IMG/VR virus record: IMGVR_UViG_3300008448_000020
Coordinates: 34,280 to 98,279 of that record
From: a virus
Direction: 5' to 3' (one strand)
Length of the DNA: 64,000 nucleotides
The notes beneath the pieces are model-generated. The model was not told the DNA's origin. It saw nothing but the letters and a program-made list of their open reading frames with translations, and ran no database searches. Made by a program: the position numbers and the translations under genes. Shown piece by piece: positions 4,430 to 33,953 of the stretch; position 1 is the first letter of the stretch; every line of letters starts with the position of its first letter.

Positions 4430-4985
4430 AGCACCAAAAAACAAAAAACCTAAAGTAAAAAGTATTAGTGCAACACGCAGTGATAACAAAGAGGTCGTAT
4501 TGAGGGGTGTTGATGCTGAGAAGATATCTGTGCAAGAGCCTGTAAGGAAGATTAAGCCGCGTGATAAGGAGCATTATGTTAATGGTAAGGAGTTTGAAGA
4601 AGAAATACGTCAATATTATAGTACCGGTGTAATTACTGTGAAGCTCGGTGAAAGTATTAATAAAATAGCGAGCGGTCTTTCTTACGCAACAAATTTCATC
4701 AATTATTCATACAAGGAGGATATGATAGGTGATGCTATTGTAAAAATGTTCTCTGCACTAAAAAACAAAAGCTTCAAGCTTGACTCGGGGTTTAGCCCGT
4801 TTTCATATTTTACTACCATTGCATTCCACGCTTTTATTAATAGAATTAAAAAAGAAAAAAAACATCACGAAGCTCTCAACGACTATAGAGATAAGGTCTA
4901 TACGGAGCTGATGATTGATAATAATGAAGTTAACGGGACACATGTATATGTTGATCCCACATACGCCAACGATGACGATTACTGA
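4368..4985 (+). CDS. 55: Late-transcription sigma factor gp55
   Basis: gp55 is the phage sigma subunit that directs host RNA polymerase to TATAAATA late promoters with the sliding clamp. The protein is about 205 residues. After a Lys-rich low-complexity N-terminus it has YVNGKEFEEEIRQYY and a sigma region 2-like part: EDMIGDAIVKMFSAL, FSPFSYFTTIAFHAFINRIK-KEKK. These match the T4 gp55 pattern (EMI-DGIE--L--F---Y-N--AYIT-ACFNAFV-RIKKE). The ATG at 4368 overlaps the UvsW 3' end by 62 nt; a TTG at 4347 is also in frame. Its presence agrees with the many late boxes in this window. Confidence 0.85.
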   Translation: MKKSTLNSQSKKLKKKNQEIKAPKNKKPKVKSISATRSDNKEVVLRGVDAEKISVQEPVRKIKPRDKEHYVNGKEFEEEIRQYYSTGVITVKLGESINKIASGLSYATNFINYSYKEDMIGDAIVKMFSALKNKSFKLDSGFSPFSYFTTIAFHAFINRIKKEKKHHEALNDYRDKVYTELMIDNNEVNGTHVYVDPTYANDDDY

Positions 4986-12191: not shown

Positions 12192-13328
12192 ATGGAAAAA
12201 GAAATCGATAATATATTCAAGAAGCTAGATTCACTTAACAGCGAGGCAACATTCCTAGACGAGAATGCCCTATCAAATGTCGATACTTGGTATGACACAG
12301 GATGTTATGCACTGAATGCTATCCTTGGCGGTAGTTGTAGAAAAGGCGGTGTACCAAAGGGTAGAATTGTGGGATTCTCCGGTGAATCAATGACTGGAAA
12401 AACATTTATTGTGAATAAAATTTTAGCTAATGCTCAGAAGCAAGGCGTATATCCGGTCATTTTTGACACTGAATTTGCCATCGATGAAGGTTCAACAAAA
12501 GGCGTCGGTCTCGACCCTTCGAAAACGAAATATGTACCTGTTTATACGGTAGATCAGTGCAGGAATCAGCTATCTGCATTCTTGGATAGTGTTATTGAAA
12601 ATAAGCAAGAAGGTAAGTTTATTATTAGTATTGACAGTCTTGGCAATCTTTCCTCACAGAAAGAAATCGATGACATTGCAAAGGATAAATCTGCAGCAGA
12701 TATGGGGTTGAGAGCGAAATCTTTGAAGAGTTTACTACGCACTCTTACCTATAAGGCAGGGCGTGCTGGCGTGACGATTCTGTTTACCAACCATACGTAT
12801 GCTGATCCTGGTGCAATGTATCCATCGCTCATAAAAAACCAAGCAGGTGGGTCTGGACCGGTGTATATGGCGAGTATTCTAGTACAGCTCGCTAAACGCA
12901 ACGAGAAGGAAGGTGAGGGTGATGCAGGTGCAGTTAACACAACAAAACTTGCTGAAGCGAACAAATACTCAGGAACTACACTACGAGCATTGACTGTTAA
13001 AAATCGCTTTGTTCCACCGTTTCTTGAAGCAGAAATGTACCTCTCATTCAAGTCGGGTCTTAACAAGTATAGCGGGTTACTACAGATGGCAGCAGCACGA
13101 GGTATCGTTGAACAAACTGGTTCGACATATGTTGTAGGTGTTGATAGTGGTAAGTATAAAAAAGGTGAAAAACTGGGATATGCTAAGAATTTCGTGAAGG
13201 ATATCTCTTTCTTTGAAGACTTCTTGATACCAGAACTCGACAAGAGACTTACTGAAGATTACAAATACAACAGTAATGACGGTGAAACACAACCGAAGAT
13301 TGAAGAAGAATTTGTAGACAATGAATAA
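12192..13328 (+). CDS. uvsX: UvsX recombinase (RecA family)
   Basis: A 378-residue strand-exchange ATPase. Walker A GESMTGKT (64-71); catalytic Glu region FDTEFAID; Walker B FIISIDSLGNL; DNA-loop region KNQAGGSGPVYMAS; acidic C-terminal tail. T4 UvsX is 391 residues. It works with UvsY (2592) and gp32 (19281) for recombination-dependent replication. Its own early promoter precedes it and its end overlaps the queC start by 8 nt, so QueC is made from the same message. Confidence 0.96.
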   Translation: MEKEIDNIFKKLDSLNSEATFLDENALSNVDTWYDTGCYALNAILGGSCRKGGVPKGRIVGFSGESMTGKTFIVNKILANAQKQGVYPVIFDTEFAIDEGSTKGVGLDPSKTKYVPVYTVDQCRNQLSAFLDSVIENKQEGKFIISIDSLGNLSSQKEIDDIAKDKSAADMGLRAKSLKSLLRTLTYKAGRAGVTILFTNHTYADPGAMYPSLIKNQAGGSGPVYMASILVQLAKRNEKEGEGDAGAVNTTKLAEANKYSGTTLRALTVKNRFVPPFLEAEMYLSFKSGLNKYSGLLQMAAARGIVEQTGSTYVVGVDSGKYKKGEKLGYAKNFVKDISFFEDFLIPELDKRLTEDYKYNSNDGETQPKIEEEFVDNE

Positions 13329-14031
13329 GGTAGTTTTATCGTATTCTGGTGGTATGGACTCAACTGTCCTACTATATAAAGCACTACATGACTTTGACGT
13401 TGTACACACAGTTACCTTTAACTACGGTCAAAGGCACCACAAAGAGATTGAAATAGTAAAGAGTCAAATAGAACGTCATTCTAGCAAGAAATTAACGAAT
13501 GTTATACTTGATTTACCGTTCTTTCAGCAATTCAAAGGTTCATCATTACTCGATAATACCATTGACGTAGCCAAGGCAAAAGACGTTATGGGTGACCCAC
13601 AAACAGTAAACTATGTACCGTTCAGAAACACTATATTTTTGTCAATTTTGGCAGGGTATGCGGAAAGTGTAGGTGCTAAGACAGTATGGTACGGAGCAGC
13701 GCAAGCTGATAGTGTCGCGGGCTTCTACGACGGGAGCATTGAGTTTCTCGATCAAATCAACGATATTACAAAACTCAATAGGAGACACGTAATATCCATA
13801 GAAGCACCACTTATCGACCTATCTAAGAAAGAAATAATCAAACTCGGTCAACAGTATGATGTTGACTATACTGACACATGGACATGTTATGAAGGTAAGG
13901 ACGTGGCGTGTGGTGAATGCACGGCATGCGCACTACGTTTGAAAGGGTTTGTTGATGCAGGCATACCAGATCCTGTTCCGTACTCAAAAGTTATACCATG
14001 GGATAAGCTTATTAAGCTCCCTGCCAGATAG
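13321..14031 (+). CDS. queC: QueC, 7-cyano-7-deazaguanine (preQ0) synthase
   Basis: A 236-residue ATP-dependent enzyme converting carboxy-deazaguanine to preQ0. Seen: PP-loop SYSGGMDST (SGGMDS at 9-14), the GQRHHKEI motif, FRNTIFLSILAGYAE, and a zinc site of four Cys with family spacing (C189, C197, C200, C203). All key residues are present, so it should be active. Overlap with uvsX implies early expression. Phages use preQ0 and derivatives to modify DNA against restriction. QueD, QueE, FolE and DpdA are not in this window. See the amidotransferase at 15520 for a possible partner. Confidence 0.95.
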   Translation: MNKVVLSYSGGMDSTVLLYKALHDFDVVHTVTFNYGQRHHKEIEIVKSQIERHSSKKLTNVILDLPFFQQFKGSSLLDNTIDVAKAKDVMGDPQTVNYVPFRNTIFLSILAGYAESVGAKTVWYGAAQADSVAGFYDGSIEFLDQINDITKLNRRHVISIEAPLIDLSKKEIIKLGQQYDVDYTDTWTCYEGKDVACGECTACALRLKGFVDAGIPDPVPYSKVIPWDKLIKLPAR

Positions 14032-20623: not shown

Positions 20624-21355
20624 ATGAAATTAACAATTCCTAATAAGGATATATTTCTTAATAATTTTCTTATTTCAATAGGTAAGATAGCAGAAAGTGC
20701 TACTCTTAAGATTACACCGGGCAGAATCGATAGCTTGGTAAGCACAGCAGATAATACGAGTATTATTTCTATTAGCTATGAAGATGAAAGCATAGATTGT
20801 GAAGCTACTCTTAATATACCTGACGTAAAGAAATTATGTAGAGTAATTCAGTGTATTGAAACACCGGGTTTCGAATTAACATTAAGCAGTAATAATATAA
20901 GTTATAGCTCAAAAACGATACGTTTTAAATATCATTTATATGATGACGGTATTATTACTGTACCCAAGATAGATCTTAAAAAGCTTGAGACTATCGATTT
21001 TGATAGCAAATTTACTCTAGCATATGCATCAATATCATCCCTCGTAAAGGGTAGTACAATAGCTACTGATACAAATAAGATCTACTTGTCTTTTATTGAT
21101 AAAGAAGTACACGGTGAATTAACAGATCATGCAAGAGCGAACACTGACTCTTATGGGTTACTTATTTCATCAGATTATACAGGTAAACCAAACACCAAGC
21201 CACTACCATTGAATTTTGAGATATTTAGAATAATTTCTTCTATGAAATTTAATACATCAGTATGTAATATAGCATCGTCGCTAGGTGTTATGACTTTTAA
21301 CATTGAGCTTGAGAAAACGAAGATTAAATTTATTATATCAGCATTAGCAAATTAG
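20624..21355 (+). CDS. 45: Sliding clamp gp45
   Basis: A 243-residue processivity clamp; T4 gp45 is 228. Seen: alternating beta-strand pattern, SLVSTADNTSIISISY in the first domain, the conserved TKIYLSF-like segment TNKIYLSFIDKEVHGELTDH, and a C-terminal FNIELEKTKIKFIISALAN matching the family end. It holds DNA polymerase on DNA and, with gp55, activates late promoters. It heads an early operon with small genes reaching to 22315. Confidence 0.9.
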   Translation: MKLTIPNKDIFLNNFLISIGKIAESATLKITPGRIDSLVSTADNTSIISISYEDESIDCEATLNIPDVKKLCRVIQCIETPGFELTLSSNNISYSSKTIRFKYHLYDDGIITVPKIDLKKLETIDFDSKFTLAYASISSLVKGSTIATDTNKIYLSFIDKEVHGELTDHARANTDSYGLLISSDYTGKPNTKPLPLNFEIFRIISSMKFNTSVCNIASSLGVMTFNIELEKTKIKFIISALAN

Positions 21356-23575: not shown

Positions 23576-23963
23576 CGGATATTTTGTATCCTTTGAATGA
23601 TTCACTTAACGAGCTTAATTCAGCAGCAAGACGTGAGATTTTTTTCTTTTCACTACGTGCAATGTCTTGAAAGATAGTTTCGCAAGGAGCTTCATGTAAT
23701 TTTGACTGAATAGACTCTGGCGATGTACCGTTTAAAAATTCAATAAAGGAATCGAGCTGCGCAATCCATTCATCGAGTTGCTTAATTTGATTAGCTTTAT
23801 GTTGATCTACTAATTGCGCTCTTCCTGCTTGCTGTACATCAAAATCACTTGGTCTTGCTGTATCAAGTTGTTGAGCCATCGCTTCACGATCACTAGCAGG
23901 CGCTGGTTGTGGCTCTTCATCAGCTTCGAGTATATAATTAAATTTTTTGCTAAACAAACTCAT
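23565..23963 (-). CDS. Probable internal head protein with tagged N-terminus
   Basis: A 132-residue late protein. The N-terminus MSLFSKKFNYILEADEE matches the head-tag pattern, with a candidate ILE site. An acidic Pro/Ala linker (residues 14-35) is followed by a helical, coiled-coil-like domain (QHKANQIKQLDEWIAQLDSF then FLNGTSPES). The start is fixed by TATAAATA 5 nt upstream. It is divergent from the 23996 gene across 32 nt. Confidence 0.6.
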   Translation of the reverse strand: MSLFSKKFNYILEADEEPQPAPASDREAMAQQLDTARPSDFDVQQAGRAQLVDQHKANQIKQLDEWIAQLDSFIEFLNGTSPESIQSKLHEAPCETIFQDIARSEKKKISRLAAELSSLSESFKGYKISAND

Positions 23964-26846: not shown

Positions 26847-26854
26847 TATTTATA
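26847..26854 (-). promoter_or_regulatory. Late promoter box TATAAATA
   Basis: Perfect consensus, 5 nt from the GTG at 26841. It begins just after the reverse-strand terminator ends. Confidence 0.75.
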
Positions 26855-26890
26855 CAAAAAAAAGAGCCTTATTCGAAAATAAGGCTCTTT
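26853..26890 (-). terminator. Strong intrinsic terminator
   Basis: A 13-bp perfect stem (26861-26873 with 26878-26890), loop CGAA, core AAGAGCC/GGCTCTT. On the reverse strand it is followed by an eight-T run, so it ends transcription of the acidic core-like gene immediately before the next late promoter. Confidence 0.85.
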
Positions 26891-26911: not shown

Positions 26912-27487
26912 TTACTTGAGACCAGCGAGATATTCGCCGACCTTTGATGCCTTACCGGCAACTTTATTATTCTTACCCTTGAGGTTGCCGGAATCTGTAT
27001 CTGAGACAATGGCATGCTTACCAGTGCTCTTTGAGCTTACTTCATCAGTTACTTTTCCTTCTCCGCCACCTTTTGATGTGAGCTTACCAGTTACATCGCC
27101 GACCTTGTTATTTTTGCTCTGTAAGGATTCACCTTTACCTTTAAGCTCTTTAATATCTGTTGCTTCACCGAGTGTGTCGCTATCTTCATCATCAACTTCT
27201 TCTTCTTCGTCTTTTTCTTCAGCGTCTTCACTCATCTCACCGCCCATTTCAGGCTCTTCTTCAACGGCTGGCTCTTCTTCGCCACCGAGAACACCCATTA
27301 AAAGATCATGTAATTTTTGTGCTGTTTCACGATCCATGGTAAGTGTGACAGTATCTTCACCTTCCATCTCACCCTCGCCTTCGCCTTCACCAGGCAAGCC
27401 GAGAGCCTCAGCATCATTAACTTCTGTATCATCGAGGCGTTCAGACATTACATCCTCGTAAAGCTTATCAAAAATAGATTTGTTCAT
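26912..27487 (-). CDS. Acidic prohead-core-like protein, short form from internal late promoter
   Basis: A 191-residue product starting at an in-frame internal ATG (27487), 5 nt after TATAAATA. The N-terminus MNKSIFDKLYEDVMSERLDD carries the LYE head tag. Then a Gly/Glu run (residues 30-42), a helix TMDRETAQKLHDLLMGVLGG, a strongly acidic stretch (about 80-120), and a Lys/Gly/Ser-rich tail with repeated KNNKV. An acidic tagged protein next to the terminase recalls T4 core proteins such as gp67, but this is analogy, not homology that I can show. Confidence 0.65.
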   Translation of the reverse strand: MNKSIFDKLYEDVMSERLDDTEVNDAEALGLPGEGEGEGEMEGEDTVTLTMDRETAQKLHDLLMGVLGGEEEPAVEEEPEMGGEMSEDAEEKDEEEEVDDEDSDTLGEATDIKELKGKGESLQSKNNKVGDVTGKLTSKGGGEGKVTDEVSSKSTGKHAIVSDTDSGNLKGKNNKVAGKASKVGEYLAGLK

Positions 27488-27766
27488 AAAATTATTTATA
27501 TTTTGTGTTTCTGTTTTTTCATTATTTTGAGAAAATTTTTTAGGCTCAAAGAAGTTATTCTTTTTTGAGGTTTTAGGATCTATAGTTTCTTCCTTAATAC
27601 CTTCAGCTTCTGCAGGGCCAGACGGTGATGATACAAAAGGCTTTTTGCCTTTACCTTTTGCAGGTGCAGCTTTTTTCGAAGTTTCAACCTGAAACGTATC
27701 TTTTGGTAAAGTTACTTTTTCTTCATATAGCTCACCGAGCTGTTCCATTGTACGAGTTAAGTTCAT
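26912..27766 (-). CDS. Long form of the same frame, 93-residue N-terminal extension
   Basis: The same reading frame is open from an ATG at 27766. The extra 93 residues (MNLTRTMEQLGELYEEKV..., a KKAAPAKGKGKK basic run, and a Pro/Ser/Ala segment) look coding and contain their own LYEE. The start lies 18 nt from the divergent terminase start in an AT-alternating stretch, where no canonical late box fits well. Whether the long form is made, or only the short form, cannot be settled from sequence. Confidence 0.45.
   Translation of the reverse strand: MNLTRTMEQLGELYEEKVTLPKDTFQVETSKKAAPAKGKGKKPFVSSPSGPAEAEGIKEETIDPKTSKKNNFFEPKKFSQNNEKTETQNINNFMNKSIFDKLYEDVMSERLDDTEVNDAEALGLPGEGEGEGEMEGEDTVTLTMDRETAQKLHDLLMGVLGGEEEPAVEEEPEMGGEMSEDAEEKDEEEEVDDEDSDTLGEATDIKELKGKGESLQSKNNKVGDVTGKLTSKGGGEGKVTDEVSSKSTGKHAIVSDTDSGNLKGKNNKVAGKASKVGEYLAGLK
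27493..27500 (-). promoter_or_regulatory. Late promoter box TATAAATA inside a reading frame
   Basis: Perfect consensus, 5 nt from the internal ATG at 27487. It encodes part of NINN of the long form. Confidence 0.75.
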
Positions 27767-27784
27767 GTATATATACTTATATAT

Positions 27785-29494
27785 ATGGCGACTAAAAAAC
27801 AAAAAAAAGAATACTATTTAGGTAACGAGCAGTTACCGACACCAGATGCTACATTTGATTATGCAGATCACCCGGAGTGGGTAATTGATATAGAAAAATG
27901 TAGAAAAAACATATTATATTTTGCGGAAAATTTTTTTTATATTACAAACCTCGATCGCGGTAAAATAAAAATTGAACTTCATCCATTTCAAAAAAGAATA
28001 TTGCGTGCTTTAAGAGATAGTAGGTTTGTTGTATTACTTGCAAGTAGACAGATAGGTAAAACAACACTTATGACTATTTATGCATTATGGAATTCATGCT
28101 TTTTTGAAGATCAGCGTACATTAATTGTAGCTAACAAAGAAGTAACTGCTATGAATATTTTTAAACGGGTACGTACTGCATATGAAAAACTACCCAATTA
28201 CTTAAAACCAGGTGTTTTAGAGTATGGTAAAACATCTATGTCATTGGCAAACGGGTCAAGTATAGGTATATCTACTACAAGTAGTGATGCAGGTCGTGGT
28301 GACAGCTGTAACTGTCTAATTCTTGATGAGCTTGCGTTTATTGATAATCACCTTGTTGAAGACTTTTGGAACTCTGTTTACCCTATTATTTCTTCATCCA
28401 AAAAATCAAAAATATTTGTAGCTTCAACACCAAAGGGTACAGGCAATTTATTTCACAAACTTTATTCTGAAGCAACAGAAGGTAAAAATGATTGGCACGC
28501 AGAACGTGTTGATTGGTGGGATGTACCCGGACGTGATGAGGTATGGAAAGAAAAAACTATTAGATCTTTAGGAAATCGTGAAGCATTTGATCAAGAATTT
28601 GGTAATGTTTTTGTTGAAACAGGTGAAAGTGCGGTAGATGAAAAATTATTTGAGGAATTACGTGCAGATTGCTGCGACCCTACATTGGTATATGACGAAG
28701 GTAAGTATCTGCTTTGGGATGAACCAAAAAGTGACAGATTATATGTAGCAGGCGTCGACGTAAGTGAGGGTGTTGGTGAAGCAGCTAGTGTTGTTCAGGT
28801 ATTAGATATAACCGAATTACAAAATATTAGACAAGTCGCCGTTTATCATGATAAAACTATAAGCCCCTTTAATTTTACTACAAAATTACACGAAATATTA
28901 CAACACTGGGGGTCACCACCTGCATTAATTGAAAGAAATAACTGCGGTGCGCAAGTAGTAGATCAGTTAAAGCATACACATAACTATGAGAATATCGTAA
29001 GTTACGGCGTTAAGGCAGGTAATCTATCTTTTAATAAAATAGGTATCGTAGCTCATACAAATACCAAATATAAAGGTGTTACTAATATGAGATATTTTGT
29101 AAACGAGCTAAAAAGTGTGCGGATACACGATATTCGCACATTAAACGAATTAAAAAACTTTGTAAGATATCCAAACGGCACGTGGTCTGCAAAACCAGGG
29201 ACCGATATTCATGATGATAGAGTAATGAGTCTTATATGGGCTCTTATTATATTAGAAAATGAATTAGTTGAAAAATATTTTGAGATAGAAGAATATGATG
29301 ATAATAAAAGACCATTAAAAATACGAACATTAGATTACGGTATTAAATATTTCATAAACCCTACATCAATGTATAGTAATCAACAAAATAGTGATGAAGC
29401 AGCACCACCGCTACCTATACTTTTTGATGAAAACCTTGAAGAAAATGCAGAGATGTTGACTTTAGAGAGTGAAGGGTGGAAACCACTATATTAA
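27785..29494 (+). CDS. 17: Large terminase subunit gp17
   Basis: A 569-residue packaging motor. ATPase: Walker A SRQIGKTT (87-94), Walker B CLILDELAF (D181, E182), coupling motif FVASTPKGTG. RNase H-like nuclease: VAGVDVSEG (about D325), IERNNCGAQVVD (E), IHDDRVMSLIWA (D). T4 gp17 is 610. It is divergent from the acidic core-like gene and starts the main forward structural run. The adjoining AT-rich stretch probably contains its promoter, but no clean late box is seen. Confidence 0.96.
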   Translation: MATKKQKKEYYLGNEQLPTPDATFDYADHPEWVIDIEKCRKNILYFAENFFYITNLDRGKIKIELHPFQKRILRALRDSRFVVLLASRQIGKTTLMTIYALWNSCFFEDQRTLIVANKEVTAMNIFKRVRTAYEKLPNYLKPGVLEYGKTSMSLANGSSIGISTTSSDAGRGDSCNCLILDELAFIDNHLVEDFWNSVYPIISSSKKSKIFVASTPKGTGNLFHKLYSEATEGKNDWHAERVDWWDVPGRDEVWKEKTIRSLGNREAFDQEFGNVFVETGESAVDEKLFEELRADCCDPTLVYDEGKYLLWDEPKSDRLYVAGVDVSEGVGEAASVVQVLDITELQNIRQVAVYHDKTISPFNFTTKLHEILQHWGSPPALIERNNCGAQVVDQLKHTHNYENIVSYGVKAGNLSFNKIGIVAHTNTKYKGVTNMRYFVNELKSVRIHDIRTLNELKNFVRYPNGTWSAKPGTDIHDDRVMSLIWALIILENELVEKYFEIEEYDDNKRPLKIRTLDYGIKYFINPTSMYSNQQNSDEAAPPLPILFDENLEENAEMLTLESEGWKPLY

Positions 29495-29497
29495 TAC

Positions 29498-30085
29498 ATG
29501 GCAAACGAAATAACATACATACAAAGCCCATTAAACAAATCGAGAAAAGACAAATTTCTCATGGTTATTAATATACCCCCGGCATTACGTGAGATATCAT
29601 CAAAACAAATACGTTCTCCTGATACTATAATACCAGAAAGTCTACAATTTTCAATATATGGTCATATAGTACCTGATATTGAGGTACCTGCAGTTACAAC
29701 ACCTTATGCAGGTCACTCTCTATTACATACAAGCCATGCAAGAAAACCATATCAACCTAACTCTGTAAAATTTACTATAGATAATAGATTTAATAACTAC
29801 TGGTTTATATATAAATGGTTAAAACTTTTAAATGATGATCAGATAGGTGTATACGATATACAAGATTTAACAAGCAATAAATCAAATCTTGAGTATAGGT
29901 GTGATATTTCCATTTTTGGGTTAGATGAATATAACAAAAAAATTATAGAATTTAAATATATTCAATCATTCCCTACTGGTCTTGGAGGTATAGAGTATGA
30001 TTACCGTAATTCAAATGAAATGGAATCATCTTTTACATATGATTATTCACAATTAATAGTTGAACCTTTAAACGACTATATATAA
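29498..30085 (+). CDS. Tail-tube-like (gp19 fold) protein
   Basis: A 195-residue protein 3 nt after gp17. The C-terminal half has the gp19-type pattern: VKFTIDNRFNNYWFIYKWL, CDISIFGLDEYNKKIIEFKY, FPTGLGGIEYDY, MESSFTYDYSQL, i.e. 'LD---K-I--F-----FP--LG-I-YD-----E---F-V-F-Y'. It is distinct from the main tube protein at 32485. It may be a tail terminator or tube-end ring. Low-level certainty on exact role. Confidence 0.6.
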   Translation: MANEITYIQSPLNKSRKDKFLMVINIPPALREISSKQIRSPDTIIPESLQFSIYGHIVPDIEVPAVTTPYAGHSLLHTSHARKPYQPNSVKFTIDNRFNNYWFIYKWLKLLNDDQIGVYDIQDLTSNKSNLEYRCDISIFGLDEYNKKIIEFKYIQSFPTGLGGIEYDYRNSNEMESSFTYDYSQLIVEPLNDYI

Positions 30086-33065: not shown

Positions 33066-33953
33066 GTGACAGATCCAATAACTAGCGCGCTAAACAACGC
33101 TGTGGGGTTAATTAACGGTACTAACCCGCCGTTTGCTCCACAAATCACCGAACTCATTGGTACTAATATACCTGGTCAACCTCTTATAAGTGCACGGGAT
33201 TATTTTCTCGCGCAGATGGATTCGTGGATTACAGCAACACCGCTATCAACACAGTGGATTGTCCTCATTGAAAGTTTACCTCGAAATCTGACCACAGAAG
33301 TTCTTCAGACGCTTGAACGAACAGACGGTAGTAAGCACGGGTTTGATATTGACGTTGCAAAAAACACGACATATAATCATGCAACACAAAGAATAGTAGG
33401 ATGTCTGTTTACCTACAGCGCTACTCTACCTAATGAACAGTATGATGTCGGATCTATAAGCGTACCAAACAATCGCGGTTTTACGCCAGGCATAATAGCT
33501 AACGGGAGACAAATCGAGCCGCCAACACTTGCGCTTGAGTTTAGAGAGACTAATACATCATTCGTTGATTTCGTAATAAGACCATGGGTAATACTCGCTT
33601 CACATTACGGTCTTGCAGCGAGACCTGGAGATACACCAATAACACGAGATCCGAAGAATGTAAAAGCAAACGTGATGGTGATGCAATACTCACGATCATT
33701 AGCTAATATGTCAATGATCCCACGTAAAGTGTGGCAATTTTATAATTGTGTACCTTATAACGTCGGTGAGCAGACACTCGACTACACTGAGGAAAAACTT
33801 TCGACAATTACAACACGCTGGACATACTCTCATTATACAGTCGCCAATAACTCTTATTTCCCGATCATCAGCATCATTAACAACATTTCTAAAAACGGTT
33901 TCCCTAAAATAACAGGCGGTGCGTTTAACATTAACAGCTTTACACCGCTGTAA
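33066..33953 (+). CDS. Second tube-like protein, probable gp54-type tube initiator
   Basis: A 295-residue protein with GTG start. The core STQWIVLIESLPRN, CLFTYSATLPNEQYDVGSIS, PPTLALEFRETNTSFVDFVIRPW and KVWQFYNCVPYNVGEQTLDY is the tube fold with extra loops. The last part is the characteristic 'W-F--C-P-----L-Y' of baseplate tube initiators. T4 gp54 (320 residues) is the baseplate protein from which tube assembly starts. A role in the tail-tube end is fairly sure; gp54 identity is inferred. Confidence 0.6.
   Translation: MTDPITSALNNAVGLINGTNPPFAPQITELIGTNIPGQPLISARDYFLAQMDSWITATPLSTQWIVLIESLPRNLTTEVLQTLERTDGSKHGFDIDVAKNTTYNHATQRIVGCLFTYSATLPNEQYDVGSISVPNNRGFTPGIIANGRQIEPPTLALEFRETNTSFVDFVIRPWVILASHYGLAARPGDTPITRDPKNVKANVMVMQYSRSLANMSMIPRKVWQFYNCVPYNVGEQTLDYTEEKLSTITTRWTYSHYTVANNSYFPIISIINNISKNGFPKITGGAFNINSFTPL

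Follow-up and report, generated by a model that had tools for sequence, protein, structure and literature searches.

A candidate head gene with two in-frame starts and two late-type promoter boxes in uncultivated T4-like viruses

Gene layout at the locus

The window analysed here is a 64,000-nt stretch of DNA (bases 34,280-98,279 of an uncultivated, 98,279-nt virus record), and positions refer to it unless another source is given. T4-type genes on the contig include those for a gp17 terminase, a gp44 clamp loader, baseplate proteins, a family-B DNA polymerase and a RecA-like protein, while the left part of the contig encodes a gp23 major head protein, a gp21 protease (PF03420, E 2.6e-35; phrog_207, E 9.4e-56), a gp20 portal and a gp4-type head closure protein. 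The terminase is less than 40% identical to that of the nearest isolates (phiM9, Pootjesviridae), and the virus thus belongs to a distant, uncultivated group. The lineage that carries the gene described below consists of widespread, uncultivated T4-like viruses that are common in aquatic metagenomes.

Several observations concern the wider gene content. The assignment of 20624-21355 as a sliding clamp was not confirmed. The tail tube family phrog_45 is matched by two different ORFs (29498-30085 and 33066-33953). QueC is encoded at 13321-14031 (PF06508, E 1.1e-60). Together with a QueE-like radical-SAM protein (weak Pfam match) at L072:9384-10139, it makes 7-deazaguanine DNA modification possible.

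The gene under study is read from the minus strand and diverges from the terminase gene. Its parts, and the genes and signals that bear on it, are as follows.

27785-29494, plus strand: gp17-type large terminase gene, the divergent neighbour
27774-27781, minus strand: TATAAGTA, a late-type box (1 mismatch) at the long start, 7 nt upstream of ATG 27766
26912-27766, minus strand: long form, an ORF of 284 aa plus stop from ATG 27766; both parts present in 71/71 homologues
27722-27766, minus strand: MNLTRTMEQLGELYE, the tag-like N-terminus of the long form, which contains the sites L-G-E and L-Y-E and is predicted to be helical at residues 7-17
27488-27721, minus strand: remaining extension, residues 16-93, predicted mostly disordered with low pLDDT
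27493-27500, minus strand: putative internal late promoter box, exact TATAAATA, 5 nt (ATTTT) upstream of ATG 27487
26912-27487, minus strand: short form, a nested in-frame ORF of 191 aa from ATG 27487; internal Met invariant in 32/32 aligned homologues
27455-27487, minus strand: internal tag MNKSIFDKLYE, with a conserved F-D-[KR]-L-[YF]-E and a predicted helix at residues 98-107
27167-27454, minus strand: acidic core, residues 105-200, with a single confident helix at 146-160
26915-27166, minus strand: C-terminal Gly/Lys repeats (KNNKV), slightly basic
26861-26890, minus strand: intrinsic-terminator-like hairpin directly 3' of the stop and upstream of the next late promoter (1 found; shuffles mean 1.0)
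26847-26854, minus strand: next putative late promoter, TATAAATA, 5 nt upstream of the downstream gene's GTG 26841
4557-4973, plus strand: gp55-type late sigma factor (phrog_234, E 3.5e-27), the expected reader of the late boxes

The initial annotation had reported an exact TATAAATA in frame 5 nt before an internal ATG, and we confirm this arrangement (27500-27493, minus strand). ATG 27487 is in frame with the long ORF as residue 94, and the box itself codes for the conserved residues Ile-Asn-Asn. With a net charge of -30, the protein that begins there is strongly acidic. The extension had been described as basic, but it is near neutral (net charge +2) and thus not clearly so. An alternative in-frame start at 27448 with an upstream GAGG was rejected, as most relatives lack the GAGG. 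The 18-nt space beside the divergent terminase start holds the long-form promoter (27767-27790), so that the promoter regions of the two genes overlap.

Conservation of the nested layout in homologues

Homologues were collected through the terminase, through the ORF and by alignment. The alignment search found 399 stretches in the collection that encode relatives, from which the best 80 of 399 were kept, and the non-redundant set comprises 71 homologues (less than 85% identity over 150 aa). Internal starts were placed by the F-D-[KR]-L-type peptide tag and the nearest Met, independently of the promoter.

The initial annotation had proposed that a late promoter embedded in the frame gives rise to a nested short product, and the layout that this proposal requires is retained throughout, with promoter, start Met and both parts of the frame kept in 71/71 homologues. 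ATAAATA precedes the internal ATG in every member of this set (by exactly 5 nt in 66 and by 8 nt in 5), though the homologues share ancestry and thus do not amount to 71 independent events, and L061-L070 are partly conditioned on the promoter in that one of the six peptides used in the ORF search (TQNINNFM) overlaps the promoter codons. Loci from the terminase and alignment searches are not conditioned on these codons. The codon pair within the box is ATA AAT in 71/71, while elsewhere in the same ORFs ATA accounts for 160/559 Ile codons (~29%). Within a 33-sequence codon alignment, only 4 of ~60 conserved degenerate columns are invariant, and 2 of these are the ATA AAT pair. The constraint therefore acts on the DNA and not just on the encoded residues.

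The codons that follow the internal ATG (27487-27450; AAATCTATTTTTGAT) are also unusually conserved, with K96 encoded by AAA in 31/33 sequences and F99 by TTT in 33/33. Leaderless initiation, or the DNA that is transcribed first, perhaps requires these codons.

The long start is likewise accompanied by a late-type box of its own (NATAAATA, NATAAGTA or NTTAAATA) 3-13 nt upstream in 70/71 homologues, the exception being cut by a contig end. This box is an exact NATAAATA in many relatives, compared with the imperfect TATAAGTA of the window, and its spacing is far more variable than that of the box at the internal start. The extension could have been a separate ORF in relatives, which the initial annotation had suggested checking, but it is fused in frame in every homologue found. 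It also evolves under purifying selection (dN/dS 0.04-0.22 in 13 pairs), which argues that the long and short forms are both probably real. These are in-frame nested genes with an internal promoter-like box, in which each of two in-frame starts has a conserved box in 70-71 of 71 homologues, and on this sequence evidence both versions of the candidate head protein are probably made.

Late boxes and predicted leaderless messages

We found that the position of the box, as opposed to its abundance, distinguishes it. An enrichment of the motif count itself was rejected, with 15 copies of TATAAATA in the window against 13.6 expected. Across the 98-kb contig, however, a gap of 5 nt to the start codon forms the clear peak. 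Of 61 NATAAATA sites, 8 have precisely this gap to an ORF of at least 60 aa that starts with ATG, where permuted motifs average 0.86. The pattern extends to 40 relative loci, in which 75 of 247 sites fall at a gap of 5 nt and 46 at a gap of 6 nt (permuted motifs average 6.1 at gap 5). Virion genes with NATAAATA 5-6 nt before the start include those at window positions 23963, 26841, 253, 56300, 30145, 33066 and 47221. The box occurs upstream of structural genes and is absent from 12/12 replication-type genes examined.

T4 late promoters and a cyanophage NATAAATA motif share the same 8-bp box (PMC2988020, PMC2984593), and gp55 is present here as well, on the contig of the window and in 7/7 relatives searched. 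(The gp55 match in the relative L076, at G001:C1:93717-94160, contains an in-frame TGA, which may be a sequencing error or a real change.) The placement of the box differs. The T4 box mostly lies 21-30 nt before the ATG and leaves room for a leader, whereas the box-to-ATG gap here is 5-6 nt, a spacing found at 119/177 sites across relatives versus 0/18 in the T4 late region (10/18 there at 21-30 nt). T4 late mRNAs have leaders with Shine-Dalgarno sites. Shine-Dalgarno-like sites precede only 3/81 contig genes and 19/316 genes of relatives, versus 23/35 in T4.

The usual T4 register, in which the late box covers about -13 to -6, would place the 5' end on the A of the ATG when the gap is 5 nt. 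In T4, late transcripts start about one helical turn downstream of the TATA box (PMC2988020). A 5-nt spacing has no room for a leader or a Shine-Dalgarno site, and the short mRNA should therefore be leaderless, with a predicted 5' end at about 27487. Applied to the lineage as a whole, the layout predicts leaderless late mRNAs as a general rule for late genes, a prediction drawn from box placement. The lineage appears to have shifted a T4-type late box until it almost abuts the start codon. A point against this prediction is that in Escherichia coli leaderless AUG messages are, as a rule, translated poorly.

The spacing recurs in a cultured virus. In Pelagibacter phage HTVC008M (NC_020484; our locus L098), NATAAATA lies at precisely this 5-nt distance upstream of the ATG of seven ORFs (6280, 7562, 18916, 16007, 19456, 31132 and 49760), among them those for the DNA end protector, tail tube cap, baseplate wedge and tape measure. 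Leaderless late translation is thus testable in a cultured system.

Because promoter and start together fit in ~16 bp, such a cassette can hide inside a reading frame, which is how a single gene could yield two head proteins at a fixed ratio. Boxes of this kind would escape any promoter finder that disregards sites within ORFs. We judge the odds to be about even that, in a large T4-like lineage, leaderless mRNAs serve the entire late (virion) programme and a gp55-type box is fused to the start codon, such that promoter-plus-start cassettes fit inside frames. The nested head gene would be one such case, in which the two boxes determine how much tagged long precursor is made relative to tagged core and the prohead protease cuts both to a common product.

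Three readings would deprive the internal box of its role as a promoter of the short form. That it is a chance AT-rich 8-mer in an AT-rich genome would agree with its unremarkable count in the window, yet the conservation of position and codons in 71/71 homologues excludes this, and we regard the idea as negligible. It is also very improbable that only the long protein is made, with the internal ATAAATA kept for downstream genes or as a DNA signal and the Met present by chance or protein need. In its favour, the motif could serve as promoter for any gene further along, and the protein may require Met94. Against it, the ORF is separated from the next gene by a terminator-like hairpin and another late box, and the distance from motif to ATG is fixed at 5 nt (66/71) or 8 nt, a spacing identical to that which marks ordinary late genes. 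Very improbable, too, is that ATAAATA-N5-ATG is no promoter but a signal for starting translation, in a host that works without Shine-Dalgarno sites. The scarcity of such sites on the contig (3/81 genes) and the AT-rich start regions found everywhere would suit this idea. Against it, the motif is the T4/cyanophage late box NATAAATA (PMC2984593), a gp55 is encoded, and 0/12 replication-type genes carry the motif although they too mostly lack Shine-Dalgarno sites, which indicates that translation does not require the motif.

Tags, candidate head role and related systems

The internal start was initially annotated as beginning with a head-tag motif. This claim is partly supported, as N-termini of the F..[LI].E type are enriched in late-promoter ORFs. 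Specifically, [FYL]..[LIFY].E occurs at the N-termini of 6/26 such ORFs on the contig (0.9 for internal stretches) and of 29/111 in relatives (5.1 for internal stretches), an enrichment to be taken as descriptive, since the material used to measure it also supplied the pattern. Targeting to the head is suggested by resemblance. The sequence [LI]xE is the T4 gp21 cleavage rule, and T4 offers a precedent for a tag combined with cleavage (PMC9026906). The internal tag has an L/I-x-E protease-type site ending at residue 104, and [LI]xE falls within the first 18 residues of 32/33 short forms (shuffle mean 6.1).

The long form has a tag-like N-terminus as well. Its conserved N-terminal helix with an L/I-x-E site resembles the internal tag in style, and [LI]xE falls within its first 24 residues in 29/33 homologues (shuffle mean 5.5). 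AlphaFold2 places helices at residues 7-17 and 98-107, covering both tags, in a model of mean pLDDT 52 that contains only short helices and is otherwise mostly of low confidence. The initial annotation had placed the tag of the long form internally and raised possible escape from the head. With a tag-like N-terminus of its own the long form need not escape, and this outcome is possible but less likely.

Searches of PHROGs and Pfam with the ORF and all 32 homologues returned no significant match, and a role in the head therefore rests on tag resemblance and neighbours. The same searches found no homology to the gp67, gp68, IPI-III or gp22 families, and we do not file the gene as a member of any of them. 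T4 gp67/gp68 and internal proteins with a capsid targeting sequence (PMC9026906) share with the present case a short N-terminal L/I-x-E tag, a small charged protein and a gp21-type protease; they differ in that homology is undetectable, that two tags occur here in one gene and that targeting is here a prediction. A candidate for the main scaffold, recognised by position only, is encoded on the contig between the genes for the protease and gp23. The product of the nested gene is thus more likely a further component of the core or a further internal protein, comparable in role to gp67/gp68 or the internal proteins, without detectable homology to them.

We consider it likely that one gene yields two in-frame late proteins from two late boxes, both tagged and with a common mature core. 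Under this model, host RNA polymerase directed by gp55 would initiate at the late box before 27766 to produce the long form, and a second initiation at the internal TATAAATA would give an mRNA with its 5' end at, or 1-2 nt from, ATG 27487. Leaderless translation of this mRNA would yield the short acidic form. Both transcripts would end at a terminator 3' of the stop, and the hairpin found there, ahead of the next late box, suggests that they probably do so. Each form would start with a short helical tag bearing an L/I-x-E site. Most likely both would enter the prohead core, where a gp21-type protease would remove the tags. Cutting at the internal L-Y-E of the long form would release the ~100-aa extension as a separate peptide and leave a core identical to that of the short form, in which case the ratio of extension to core would be fixed by the two promoters.

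An unlikely but more serious rival, which follows the idea of the initial annotation, holds that both forms are made and that only the short form enters the head, the long form remaining outside or doing another job (for example as an anchor or regulator). The two tags differ in type (LxE-I/M-..-Y in the long form and FDKLYE in the short), such that their destinations need not match, and four homologues (L019, L020, L021 and L039) have no [LI]xE site in the N-terminus of the long form. The presence of this site in 29/33 long forms argues against this reading, as does ORF 315 on the contig, which has its own late box and a similar N-terminus, LLNEIYVQKITE.

The reading with two tagged forms and a common core has partial parallels in known systems. 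T4 likewise has in-frame internal starts in late genes, namely the gene 17 products 17'A, 17'B and 17'' together with 21' and 26' (AF158101), and for gene 17 this record states internal transcription. The remark in the initial annotation that T4 nested starts differ in layout is fair. The recorded 17'A, 17'B, 17'' and 21' starts have no TATAAATA within 60 nt upstream, their layout is not leaderless and they have no second head tag. The T4 nested genes are moreover terminase, protease and baseplate genes, whereas the gene here encodes an acidic tagged protein. Shigella virF (VirF30/VirF21) resembles the present case in its gene-internal promoter and shorter in-frame form, and VirF21 has been experimentally shown to undergo leaderless translation from an mRNA whose 5' end lies 1-2 nt before the in-frame ATG (PMC5101355). 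Unlike here, virF is a bacterial regulator gene with no phage late promoter and no head tag.

Among the nearest isolates, the nested gene was not seen next to the terminase in the annotations of phiM9, P10VF, Atu_ph04 (for which annotation is sparse), SH-Ab 15599 or Cr30, while XG4 carries no annotation. An alignment-based search of T4, P-HM1, HTVC008M and phiM9 found no homologue, though this search had no positive control and is weak, and the absence of a counterpart in HTVC008M is to be read accordingly. DNA and protein searches of a phage collection with the ORF gave no match.

Internal in-frame T4 products are thus already known, as is a gene-internal promoter with a leaderless shorter form in Shigella VirF. 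What is new is the combination, its strict conservation across a wide lineage, the paired tags and the lineage-wide leaderless-type late layout; no earlier description of leaderless late mRNAs in T4-like phages or of the nested gene was found in the open-licence literature searched. In lambda C/Nu3, a head-assembly protein is also nested in frame in a longer one, with Nu3 made from an internal start on a shared message and not from an internal late promoter.
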